Shown: positions 28,026-32,140 of the stretch, one piece after another
How the letters are laid out: every line of letters begins with the position of its first letter
Numbering within the stretch: the first letter of the stretch is position 1
DNA from: an uncultured Bacteroidales bacterium
GTDB taxonomy: Bacteria; Bacteroidota; Bacteroidia; Bacteroidales; UBA4417
Direction of reading: 5' to 3'
Assembly (NCBI GenBank): GCA_903864265.1
Contig: CAIPFN010000183.1
Span: 1-32,140, forward strand
Length of the DNA stretch: 32,140 nt
Position numbers and translations under genes: made by a program
Notes under the pieces: generated by a model
What the model was told of the DNA's origin: nothing
The model's input: the letters and a program-made list of their open reading frames with translations, nothing else
Database searches by the model: none

Positions 28026-28457
28026 TTGGCATTCAATAAAACCGGTTTGGAACAGGGTAAATTTATCAGTCGGAAAGCATTTCTGAGGCTTGCCACAATG
28101 GCGGCGGGGGCGGCATTTATTTCCATCTGGAACCGATTGAGCAGCCGGAATAAACTGTTATCGGGTAAACCGCTTACAAACTCAGTAAATACTGCCAAAC
28201 TGGGTGCCGGGATTTATTGGTTCGACAATTTCATAATCGTAAAATCTGCTTCTGAACTGAAAGTTTTCTCCAACCGCTGCACCCACGCAGGCTGCCGCAT
28301 AAACCGGGAAATCGACGGGCAACTGGTTTGCCCTTGTCACGGGTCGAGATACGAAGCGGCCAGCGGGAAAGTGCTGCAAGGTCCTGCAGGGCTGCCACTC
28401 CGGGTCATTCCTTACACCACCGACACGAAAAGCGGTGAAATCCGATTTAAAGCCTGA
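28026..28457 (+). CDS. Rieske [2Fe-2S] iron-sulfur protein
   Basis: A 143-residue Rieske protein. The cluster boxes are CTHAGC (85-90) and CPCHGS (102-107): Cys85, His87, Cys102 and His105 bind the cluster and Cys90 and Cys104 can form the usual disulfide. Ser107 and Tyr109, which raise the redox potential in bc1-type proteins, are both present. The N-terminus has SRKAFLRLATMAAG, an RK variant of the Tat signal or a membrane anchor, as expected for Rieske proteins exported folded. There is no ATG; the TTG at 28026 or the TTG at 28047 (giving MEQGKFISRKAF) is the start, and the second is quite plausible. The stop codon is three bases before the cytochrome b/c gene, so the two are surely cotranscribed and act in one complex. 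Confidence 0.93.
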   Translation: MAFNKTGLEQGKFISRKAFLRLATMAAGAAFISIWNRLSSRNKLLSGKPLTNSVNTAKLGAGIYWFDNFIIVKSASELKVFSNRCTHAGCRINREIDGQLVCPCHGSRYEAASGKVLQGPAGLPLRVIPYTTDTKSGEIRFKA

Positions 28458-28460
28458 GTT

Positions 28461-31178
28461 TTGAAAATACCCGGAAACCTATTAAAAGGAATCGCCTTCG
28501 ATACATACGGATGGATAGCAACGGCATCCGTCATACTGTGTGCCGTTTCGGGAGCCTTGCTGGCCATTCCCTACGACGTGGCCGCACCCTATCTTTCGGT
28601 TACCAGGTTTGTAACCGCCAATCCGGCCGCTTCGCTGGTGCGAAATATTCATTACTGGAGCGCACAGCTGTTTCTTATTCTGACCCTGGTACATATTTTC
28701 GAGCATTTGTGGAAAGGAAGCGAAAGCAATATCCGGAATAAGGGCTTATGGTTCAGGCTTACCCTCTCGATAGGATTTACATTTTACGTGATGCTTTCAG
28801 GATTTATCCTGAAAGCTGACGGTGACAGCTTGCAGGCACAGCTTATATTGTCGTCGCTTATCGAAAGCCTTCCCGTAATCGGCCATCTGCTGCAACAAAC
28901 CTTTATAGGGCCCGGCGGCCACCTGCAGCTGCTGTATATACAGCATGCTTCAACGGCAACTGTCATATTGTTCATCATCATCATAGAGCATGCCCGCAGC
29001 TTAAAGGTAAACCTGCTCACTATCCTGATCACGGTTGCACTGATCACGCTTACCGGTCTTTTCTTCAGGGCCCCGCTTAACGGATTGAACGACATGGTAA
29101 TGAAAGGCCCCTGGTACTTTGTGGGAATGCAGGAAGCACTTCATTGGCTCCAAAACCCGCTTGTAGCCACATTGGGATTGACAATGCTGTTCATTTTATT
29201 TTTCCTGCTGCCCTGGGTAAAACCTTTTTATAGCAAGCTGATTAAACGCGCCTTTGTCACCATACTCATTTTCTACGTTTTACTAACAATTACCGGCTTT
29301 TTCTTCCGGGGCCCCATGTGGCAGTGGCAATGGCCGGGACAGGCGGAATATAAGCTTCCATCGCTTTTTTATTCGGAAACGATCCGCTTATCAGGTCAGG
29401 ATAGCACACAGACTGTTGTAGTCCAGGGGCATGCCGAGGGTTGTGTTTCCTGCCACAAAGGGATGAGCGGGTTTTCGGATGCCCACAGGCCTGAGTATAT
29501 CGGTTGTTTTTCGTGTCATGGCGGCGATCCGTTTACACTGGATAAAGCCAAAGCCCATCGTACCATGTTCGCTGTTCCCGGCAATTTATCCAATGCACCC
29601 GAAAGCTGCGGCAACACCGGCTGTCATCCGGGTATTGTGAACCGGGTGAACCTTTCCCTGATGTCGTCGTTAAGCGGTATGATCAGCGTCGACAAATGGG
29701 TCTTCGGGGAAAATGACAGCCTTAACCAGGCTGAGCATGAGAATAATATAGGATATACCCCGGCCGGCATGCATCTGCGTAACCTATGTGCCGGCTGCCA
29801 CCTGGGGAACGAAAAAACCGGGACCGGTCCCCCTGCCTGGCTCGAAAGAGGAGGCGGTTGCCTGGCCTGCCATCTCACTTATGACGACAAGGCTCTGGCC
29901 TCGCTAAAGCAGCTTAGGGGCAGGCGACCACCGGACAATACCCTGCCGCTTTTTCACCCGGCCCTGAACCTGAATATTACCAACGACAAATGCAGGAGCT
30001 GCCACAGCCGTTCGGGCAGGATTTCGATGAATTATGAAGGCTGGCACGAAACGGAGCTGAAACCGGCACAAATCCAGGGTGAACCCGAATACCAGGTTTT
30101 ACCCGATCAGCGTGTTTTCAAAAAAATGCCCGAAGATATTCATCATCAAAAAGGCCTGCTGTGCATCGACTGCCACGGATCGTACGAACTGATGGGCGAC
30201 GGCAAACCTTATGCCCACAAGGAAGAAGCCGTTAAGGTACAATGCAGTGATTGCCATAGCCTGAAAGCTAAAAAACAGACATTCCTGGCCGAAACCGACC
30301 AGGAGTCGCAACTGATTTCCTGGCTGCGGAAATACAAAACAGAGGGAATACGGGTAATAGTCACCGAAAAGGGAGATCTCCCGCTCTTAAATACCCGGGT
30401 GGAAGCACAAGGCAGCCACCTGAGCCTGGTCAAAAAATCGGGGGCAGGTAGCGTGATTATGAAACCGCCTGCCAAGGCCTGCACCGAAGGCAAGGCCCAT
30501 GCCCGGCTGAGTTGCGAAGCCTGCCATACGGCCTGGGCACCTCAATGTATAGGATGCCATAACAGCTATGAAAAACAGGCAAGGGGTTTTGATATGTTGA
30601 AAAACTCCGTTCGAAAAGGAAGCTGGGTTGAATATGCATCCGAAGGCCTGGCCGAATTGCCGGTACTCGGTATAAACTTCACGGACAAGACGAAGAAAAA
30701 CGGGCAGGTATGCACTTTTACCCCCGGCATGATCCTTACCATTGACAAGGCTTCCTTCGCGGAAAGCGGGAAAACGGTTTTTCACCGGCTCTTTGCGCCT
30801 TCGTCGGCACATACCACGCAGCGCATGGGCAGGAGTTGTAAATCGTGCCATAACGACCCGCTGGCCCTGGGCTATGGAAGGGGAATACTGGCTTTCTCTT
30901 CCACAGGCAAGTGGTCCTTTGAACCTATGTATAAAAACAATATCCATGATGGATTGCCTGAGGATGCCTGGACCGGATTCCTGCAGGAGCGGAAGGATCA
31001 GGCTGCAACCCGGCAGGGCATGAGGCCCTTTAACGTGGAGGAGCAAAAAAGAATACTTACGGCGGGGGCATGCCTTACCTGCCACGCTGCAAATTCCAAA
31101 ACGATGAAGGCTGCTCTACAGGACTTCGAAAACACCATGGCTAAAAAAAGCAGGAAATGCGTATGGCCGGTATTCTGA
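28461..31178 (+). CDS. Cytochrome b fused to a 12-heme cytochrome c (quinol-oxidising complex subunit)
   Basis: A 905-residue fusion starting at TTG 28461, three bases after the Rieske stop. Residues 1-283 are a cytochrome b6/subunit IV-like core with seven predicted helices (about 17-37, 64-84, 98-118, 158-178, 183-203, 232-252, 263-283). Its two b-heme pairs are His64/His78 (13 residues between) and His162/His177 (14 between, the b6-type spacing). The quinol-site motif is GPWYFVG at 216-222 rather than PEWY. Seven helices leave the C-terminus in the periplasm. There follow eleven CxxCH sites (Cys328, 349, 443, 467, 511, 568, 595, 685, 696, 793, 871) and one CX4CH at 383-389, giving up to 12 c-hemes. 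Heme-free, beta-rich stretches lie at about 600-684 and 701-790. The protein probably takes electrons from menaquinol through Rieske and the b hemes to a periplasmic acceptor, which is unknown. Confidence 0.92.
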   Translation: MKIPGNLLKGIAFDTYGWIATASVILCAVSGALLAIPYDVAAPYLSVTRFVTANPAASLVRNIHYWSAQLFLILTLVHIFEHLWKGSESNIRNKGLWFRLTLSIGFTFYVMLSGFILKADGDSLQAQLILSSLIESLPVIGHLLQQTFIGPGGHLQLLYIQHASTATVILFIIIIEHARSLKVNLLTILITVALITLTGLFFRAPLNGLNDMVMKGPWYFVGMQEALHWLQNPLVATLGLTMLFILFFLLPWVKPFYSKLIKRAFVTILIFYVLLTITGFFFRGPMWQWQWPGQAEYKLPSLFYSETIRLSGQDSTQTVVVQGHAEGCVSCHKGMSGFSDAHRPEYIGCFSCHGGDPFTLDKAKAHRTMFAVPGNLSNAPESCGNTGCHPGIVNRVNLSLMSSLSGMISVDKWVFGENDSLNQAEHENNIGYTPAGMHLRNLCAGCHLGNEKTGTGPPAWLERGGGCLACHLTYDDKALASLKQLRGRRPPDNTLPLFHPALNLNITNDKCRSCHSRSGRISMNYEGWHETELKPAQIQGEPEYQVLPDQRVFKKMPEDIHHQKGLLCIDCHGSYELMGDGKPYAHKEEAVKVQCSDCHSLKAKKQTFLAETDQESQLISWLRKYKTEGIRVIVTEKGDLPLLNTRVEAQGSHLSLVKKSGAGSVIMKPPAKACTEGKAHARLSCEACHTAWAPQCIGCHNSYEKQARGFDMLKNSVRKGSWVEYASEGLAELPVLGINFTDKTKKNGQVCTFTPGMILTIDKASFAESGKTVFHRLFAPSSAHTTQRMGRSCKSCHNDPLALGYGRGILAFSSTGKWSFEPMYKNNIHDGLPEDAWTGFLQERKDQAATRQGMRPFNVEEQKRILTAGACLTCHAANSKTMKAALQDFENTMAKKSRKCVWPVF

Positions 31179-31311: not shown

Positions 31312-32046
31312 TTAAAAGAAAAACAGCTTAATACTTGCCGCTATCAGCACCACCGATAATACCCGTTTCAGGTTCAGTTCCGAAATAGTACGGCTGCCCA
31401 TGGCCGAACCTAACAAAGCTGCCGCCATCACCCCCGAAATCCAGTAAACAATATGAGGCTGAAGACTGATATGCTTACTCATCAGGCCGGTGAGCCCGCT
31501 GGCCGAATTGAGGAATATGAACAAGGCTGCTGCAGCTGAGGCTTCTTTAATCCTGGCGTAGCGGGCAAGGATAAGCACCGGCGACAGCAAAATACCTCCG
31601 CCTATACCAATAATGCCTGAGACCAGTCCGAGCAGCAAGCCCAGGCCCATCCCCGGCCAGAAGGGAGGATCGTGAGTGGTGTCGTTCTCCGTATTCCTGA
31701 CCAGCAGCATCCGCATCACCGCTATGATCAGCATGATGCCCAGGATGATTTTATACATCGTAGGGTTGATACTGATTTTAGCACCCAAATAGGCTGCAGG
31801 CATCGAAGTTAGCAGGAAAGGCAACACCTGCCTCCACCTGAAAAACCCGGCCCTGAAATACGAAATAAACGCGATGAGCGAAACCACCAGGTTCAATATC
31901 AGCGCATAATAACGGATGGATTCGGGTGCGAAGCTGAACAGCGCCATAAGGGCGAGATAGCCGCTGGCTCCGCCGTGCCCGACCGAAGAGTAGAAAAACG
32001 CGATCAGCATGAGGCCGGTCACGAAAAGCAATTCATTTTGTACCAT
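31312..32046 (-). CDS. TauE/SafE (TSUP)-family membrane permease
   Basis: A 244-residue integral membrane protein of the sulfite exporter TauE/SafE family (formerly DUF81). The first half carries LMLIAFFYSSVGHGGASGYLALM and the second half GLLLGLVSGIIGIGGGILLSPVLI, the paired glycine-rich motifs of the inverted repeat, with about eight hydrophobic helices. I chose the ATG at 32044-32046 because GGAAAGGAG lies four bases in front of it; an ATG at 32071-32073 would add nine polar residues. Members export or take up sulfite, sulfoacetate, thiosulfate or other organosulfur anions; the substrate cannot be read from sequence. It converges on the cytochrome gene with 133 bases between stops and no clear terminator. 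A functional link with the cytochromes is only a guess. Confidence 0.88.
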   Translation of the reverse strand: MVQNELLFVTGLMLIAFFYSSVGHGGASGYLALMALFSFAPESIRYYALILNLVVSLIAFISYFRAGFFRWRQVLPFLLTSMPAAYLGAKISINPTMYKIILGIMLIIAVMRMLLVRNTENDTTHDPPFWPGMGLGLLLGLVSGIIGIGGGILLSPVLILARYARIKEASAAAALFIFLNSASGLTGLMSKHISLQPHIVYWISGVMAAALLGSAMGSRTISELNLKRVLSVVLIAASIKLFFF

Positions 32047-32140
32047 GGTTCTCCTTTCCAATTCAGTTTGCATTCGGGAGGCTGTACTGTTTCCGGCGAC
32101 AACCCATCGGTTGCAATTTCATAAATCTTTCAATTCTTAG

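Follow-up and report, generated by a model that had tools for sequence, protein, structure and literature searches.

The window analyzed here, a stretch of 32,140 nucleotides that is the whole of contig C183 from an uncultured Bacteroidales bacterium (host genome of 3.6 Mb, 64% complete), raises the question of which reaction is carried out by two adjoining genes near its end. The first encodes a Rieske protein of 143 aa, and the second a protein of 905 aa in which a cytochrome b6/subunit IV core is fused to a cytochrome c domain with twelve heme sites. As the second gene starts after a gap of 3 bases from the Rieske stop codon, the two are probably co-transcribed. A sequence-only reading of this DNA had described the pair as a compact alternative bc-type complex, possibly wiring menaquinol directly to a distant or outer-membrane acceptor. 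Our analysis makes it probable that the pair is a two-gene, b6f-type Rieske/cytochrome b menaquinol oxidoreductase working in a module with an enzyme of the Psr type. From the observed architecture, ligands, conservation and linkage we infer the quinol substrate, the Q cycle, the order of electron transfer and the acceptor.

A Rieske protein and a cytochrome b core fused to a twelve-heme domain

The two genes and their elements, with the evidence for each, are as follows.

28026–28457 (+): Rieske [2Fe-2S] protein gene, ExtO/PetC-like, TTG start as listed, Tat-like N-terminus (SRKAFLRL); Pfam Rieske 7e-12, NCBIfam PetC of b6f 9e-15, PDB b6f Rieske 9e-11
28278–28295 (+): Rieske box I, CTHAGC, residues 85–90; translation, C-[TS]-H-x-G-C in 17 aligned relatives
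28329–28343 (+): Rieske box II, CPCHG, residues 102–106; translation, CxCHGS in 17 aligned relatives
28461–31178 (+): fusion gene, 905 aa, cytochrome b6/subunit IV core and 12-heme c domain; Pfam and NCBIfam matches, heme-site count
28461–29330 (+): membrane core, residues 1–290, seven helices, ExtP-like (b6, four) and ExtQ/subunit IV-like (three); Cytochrome_B 2e-9, ExtP 3e-13, PDB cytochrome b6 profile 4e-7, fold match Z 18
28650–28694 (+): heme-b ligands of helix B, H64/H78, 14 apart; invariant in 19 aligned full fusions, aligned with b6 H86/H100
28944–28991 (+): heme-b ligands of helix D, H162/H177, 15 apart, b6f-like spacing; invariant in 19 full fusions
29103–29117 (+): Qo-motif-like KGPWY, residues 215–219 (PEWY changed to GPWY), followed by invariant Q224, E225 and H228; alignment
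29418–31175 (+): 12-heme c domain, ExtM-like, residues 320–905; NCBIfam ExtM 3e-76, 257 bits (cut-off 800), 12 sites in 26 relatives
29442–29456 (+): first heme site, C328–H332; alignment
29607–29627 (+): third heme site, CX4CH variant, C383–H389; alignment
31071–31085 (+): twelfth heme site, C871–H875; alignment

PetC is the closest family for the Rieske protein. In the fusion protein, the Cytochrome_B match covers residues 16–150, and a model of residues 1–300 (pLDDT 57) resembles bc-complex cytochrome b along all seven membrane helices, A–G, with a best Z of 18.0 over 276 residues. The full 905 residues, in contrast, gave only a poor AlphaFold2 model (pLDDT 36, pTM 0.22, 11 alignment rows), too uncertain to place the distal heme ligands. 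Residues 181–290 correspond to ExtQ by position and size, without a sequence match. All full-length fusions aligned share the four heme-b histidines, and the spacing of 15 in helix D is typical of b6f rather than of bc1. Cytochrome f was not encountered as c-type acceptor; the acceptor domain of the fusion is the ExtM-like one, with 11 CXXCH sites and one CX4CH site, and its 12 sites have near-constant spacing in 26/26 aligned proteins. The Rieske boxes, the seven-helix core and the twelve c-heme sites named by the sequence-only reading were all confirmed.

Members of at least six families have the full-length fusion, at 42–74% identity, and in the genus it is present in nearly every member; a scan of genomes by contig gave 15 relatives, all from Bacteroidales/Bacteroidetes. 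Among 395 genomes of the phylum, 13 (the window genome included), spanning six families, carry the twelve-heme protein, 6 as the full fusion and 7 as the twelve-heme domain only. In the fetched neighborhoods, a Rieske gene lies beside every fused copy except that of locus L081, which is at a contig end, and beside none of the unfused copies. The description of the pair as a compact b6f-type Rieske/b unit fused to a twelve-heme domain is supported. In the genomes with an unfused twelve-heme protein, no b6/IV core was found at another place, apart from weak hits that fall mainly on another, cytochrome b-like protein of about 360 residues. A frameshift or an assembly error joining separate genes, raised beforehand as a possible flaw, was ruled out, because many assemblies, made independently and spread over several families, contain the same uninterrupted fusion, among them a single-contig genome of 3,300,414 bp; nothing was found in favor of such an artefact, and we give it virtually no chance.

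Some further observations were made on related genes. The protein of about 360 residues, weakly similar to cytochrome b over residues 17–150, is widespread in Bacteroidota genomes (for example, G074:C9 and G393:C3:961505). In some members of the genus (L011, L013 and L015, and also L076, L078 and L081), small sulfur-related genes, encoding OsmC, thioredoxin, a protein with an IS1595-type Zn ribbon and others, separate the Rieske gene from the fusion gene. In loci L031–L035 (family f19), adjoining separate genes encode a b6-like protein (about 255–261 aa) and a subunit-IV-like protein (about 294–331 aa); this is a split complex of the Rieske/b type, distinct from the present one, in a further family of the phylum.

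Linkage of the twelve-heme gene with a Psr-type operon

A gene for a Tat-type molybdoenzyme (PsrA) was found at no more than 5 kb from the twelve-heme gene in 17 of the fetched loci. In most loci, the genes that come after it encode ferredoxin and NrfD subunits, a pair of YedE/Sulf_transp halves and either a single rhodanese or two; genes for MobA and for a MerR regulator are common nearby as well. The nearest solved structure for the enzyme is Thermus PsrA (2vpw, 3e-191, next best 8e-47), deposited as thiosulfate reductase. PsrA is present in 13/13 genomes with the twelve-heme protein, compared with 30/382 without it (Fisher p 5e-14, uncorrected for descent). As PsrA is always present, while the unfused copies have neither a Rieske gene nor a b6/IV core, the twelve-heme protein follows Psr and the Rieske/b core is an optional addition. 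The earlier remark that no terminal reductase adjoins the pair holds for contig C183 only, since relatives have the Psr-type operon next to the genes and the host has a complete one (PsrABC-YedE-YedE-rhodanese-rhodanese) on contig C54 (G000; L101 1367–7858), 68–97% identical to the operon adjoining the fusion in L077. The PsrABC-YedE-rhodanese partner points to a chemistry of the sulfur/arsenic/selenium type.

A cultivated host apparently carries the complex. In genome G188, the Rieske and fusion genes lie directly upstream of a merR gene and psrABC (L060, 8036–15518), and the gene order after the pair matches Mros1773 (MerR) and Mros1774–1776 (psrABC), so that G188 is apparently Melioribacter roseus P3M-2 and the pair would correspond to Mros1771/1772; a search for these two numbers in the open-access literature returned nothing. 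The genome paper of this organism reports no cytochrome bc1 genes (PMC3534657). The MerR-family regulator between the twelve-heme gene and psrA in this locus (L060 11381–11821, cl10) has a long Cys-rich C-terminal tail, which suggests metal, metalloid or sulfur sensing.

As to other genes of the host and of the window, contig C91 (L104, G000, 375–2955) encodes a molybdenum-free NrfC/NrfD pair beside a small multiheme c protein, likely a second route from quinol to a multiheme protein. One feature follows the fusion gene in the window.

31312–32073 (−): TauE/SafE family permease, convergent neighbor; Pfam TauE 1.5e-32, cluster cl9 in 8 fetched loci

This permease is conserved beside the pair within the genus, and its association with the complex is weak. 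Most of contig C183 (379–27741) is a carbohydrate-use region with two GH32 genes, a GH36 alpha-galactosidase, two SusC/SusD pairs, a sugar MFS transporter, a PfkB kinase, LacI and a hybrid two-component regulator; it looks like a locus of the sucrose/fructan/raffinose type and is not evidently connected with the pair.

Electron flow through the complex

In the mechanism that we propose, the heme-b protein, the subunit-IV-like part and the c-type acceptor (counterparts of ExtP, ExtQ and ExtM) would act as a single polypeptide, with the Rieske protein (ExtO) as a separate subunit. Menaquinol would be oxidized at the periplasmic side, one electron passing from the Rieske cluster to the twelve-heme domain and the other crossing the membrane via the two b hemes to reach a second quinone site, which would make the reaction electrogenic (Q cycle). 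The reading as an oxidoreductase in a module with Psr is supported by the family and fold matches of each part, by the invariance of the four b-heme histidines, by their b6f spacing, by the presence of the Rieske gene only beside fused copies and by the linkage with PsrA, and periplasmic delivery by the seven-helix core, which in the usual topology of cytochrome b puts the C-terminus outside. The Psr-type module (PsrABC, two YedE halves, one or two rhodaneses) would share the menaquinone pool with the complex.

How the two enzymes are ordered can be proposed more tentatively. PsrABC may feed electrons from a reduced sulfur compound, or a similar one, into menaquinone, with the complex draining them to a periplasmic acceptor of higher potential; although our confidence in this series order is limited, we slightly favor it over a purely reductive module, such as one for arsenate respiration, because the module would otherwise contain two enzymes competing for menaquinol, and because a similar order, from sulfur to quinone, Rieske/cytochrome b and cytochrome c, has been proposed for cable bacteria (PMC13047784). 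The potential of menaquinone is about −74 mV. As the Rieske branch needs an acceptor above this value, neither thiosulfate nor polysulfide is likely to serve; arsenate, selenite, nitrite or a pool of cytochromes could.

Several observations weigh against the proposed oxidoreductase. The usual glutamate of the Qo motif is missing and a proline stands in its place, as the fusion, aligned by eye, has GPWY instead of PEWY; the cysteine that binds heme cn in b6 (Cys35) has no counterpart, the aligned residue being approximately T15/Y16; the twelve-heme protein and Psr occur without any Rieske/b6-IV core in 7/13 genomes, where the twelve-heme protein must therefore have another electron route; and psrA of M. 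roseus is strongly induced by arsenate respiration (PMC5492636), which favors a reductive role. The first two would fit a non-electrogenic quinol dehydrogenase, in which the b hemes are structural and a modified Qo site does not bifurcate electrons. However, conservation is strict for all four b-heme ligands and for a Rieske protein dedicated to the complex, and the second residue of the Qo motif varies across bc complexes in correlation with the quinone used (PMC9162462); we therefore regard such a dehydrogenase as improbable.

The other two bear on the direction of the module. Electrons could run from menaquinol through the Rieske protein, the b hemes and the twelve hemes to the periplasmic Psr-type enzyme, which would then reduce arsenate or a similar acceptor of fairly high potential. 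The arsenate induction of a psrA that adjoins the fusion, the strict linkage with Psr and the persistence of this linkage in copies that have no Rieske/b part are all as expected for such a flow, but PsrC/NrfD already joins the Psr-type enzyme to the quinone pool, and the YedE and rhodanese genes indicate sulfane sulfur over arsenic. We consider this reductive arrangement a real possibility, if not the one we would choose.

The twelve-heme domain may be more than a wire. Only 8 distal histidines are invariant for its 12 hemes in the 26 proteins aligned, leaving four hemes without a conserved histidine partner, and in 5/26 proteins the entire domain contains 22–23 histidines, while 24 are required for twelve bis-His hemes. 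Therefore, at least some hemes are predicted to have another ligand, such as Met, or an open site; M401, M578, M757, K452 and C900 are further invariant residues. These features would suit a terminal enzyme, with selenite, tellurite, polythionate or sulfite among its conceivable substrates, as would the link, by way of the porin ExtI, between the Geobacter ext cluster and the reduction of selenite and tellurite (PMC5877670). Yet hemes with Met ligands would be ordinary electron carriers, the evidence on selenite concerns ExtI and not ExtM, and no catalytic signature was identified in the domain, making a terminal enzyme unlikely in our judgment. Less likely still, the single polypeptide, with a menaquinol end and a catalytic heme site, would be a self-contained electrogenic enzyme from quinol to a sulfur, selenium or arsenic compound, overlooked in a cultivated bacterium, whose twelve-heme half also works with Psr alone.

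The direct wire to the outer membrane suggested by the sequence-only reading did not find support. Twelve hemes in one periplasmic domain, a weak match of the fusion to the MtrC/MtrF domain II–IV model (2e-6, below cut-off) and Fe(III) respiration by M. roseus (PMC3534657) speak for extracellular electron transfer from the inner to the outer membrane. Against it, an MtrB/PioB-type porin (PF11854) is present in 0/17 genomes and the identified neighbor genes have no porin family match, other porin families not having been searched; in addition, no ExtI, ExtH, ExtKL, ExtN or ExtS was recognized among the fetched neighbors, which were only partly annotated. Overall, we find a wire of this kind very doubtful.

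The description as an alternative bc-type complex was right in that the pair is a unit of the b6f type, and has to be given up for the genus if taken to mean a substitute for alternative complex III (ACIII). Replacement of ACIII was rejected there because its signature, TIGR04519, is present in 8/10 genus members searched (the host among those searched); heme-copper oxidases are also carried. In the host genome, at its 64% completeness, ACIII was not detected, and its three NrfD proteins were judged by eye to be PsrC, an NrfD of the Nrf/Dsr type and one of the HybB type. Organisms that rely on ACIII can thus hold a second quinol-oxidizing unit, of the Rieske type and in the company of a Psr-type molybdoenzyme. 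Models of energy conservation in the sulfur/arsenic respiration of such lineages should change accordingly, and annotations reporting no bc complex in them may need revisiting.

Comparison with known systems

The closest relation is with extHIJKLMNOPQS of Geobacter, which has the same four modules, namely the 12-heme cytochrome c ExtM, the b-type cytochrome ExtP, the Rieske protein ExtO and the small membrane protein ExtQ (PMC2825233, PMC5877670). The cluster was predicted to be a quinol-oxidizing inner-membrane bc complex (PMC2825233), a candidate since 2010 that is still uncharacterized. Its modules are separate genes, whereas three are fused here, and it has ExtN (10 heme), ExtKL, ExtS, ExtH and the porin ExtI, which were not recognized near the present pair; PsrABC-YedE-rhodanese is linked to the pair instead. 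The ExtM and ExtP matches are both far below curated cut-offs; with 12 heme sites as in ExtM (NF040943) and a score well under the family cut-off, the twelve-heme half is a homolog of ExtM and not a formal member. A two-gene fused version in Bacteroidota, one of them apparently in cultivated M. roseus, simplifies expression, deletion and structural work.

In Kuenenia, Kuste3096–3097 are likewise two genes, with a c domain fused to cytochrome b beside a Rieske protein (PMC12954380), but they are bc1-like with two c hemes, unlike the b6f-like core with twelve ExtM-type hemes described here. Kuste4569–4574 and Kustd1480–1485 combine b6, subunit IV and Rieske with a multiheme c protein (PMC12954380), as separate subunits with a five-helix SUIV and proposed NAD(P) reductase subunits. 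The Rieske/b pair of Caldithrix abyssi (Cabys_2558–2557) also lies by a molybdoenzyme cluster (nap) in a genome that has ACIII (PMC5317091); it is tied to nitrate reduction, and a fused multiheme domain is not described for it. Cytochrome b6f shares the b6 and IV helix plan, the helix-D histidine spacing of 15 and a PetC-type Rieske protein, and differs in having cytochrome f, the heme-cn cysteine and PEWY. ACIII is of another kind, with an ActB-type molybdopterin-like/FeS subunit and NrfD subunits in place of Rieske and cytochrome b.

In conclusion, the pair belongs to a known family as far as its modules go, since these match the named ExtM and ExtP, while the fused form, its constant Psr-type company and its apparent occurrence in M. 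roseus had no description in the open-access literature searched, subscription papers being outside the search. What is new, relative to these systems, is the three-way fusion of ExtP-, ExtQ- and ExtM-like parts into one dodecaheme protein, together with its strict link to Psr.

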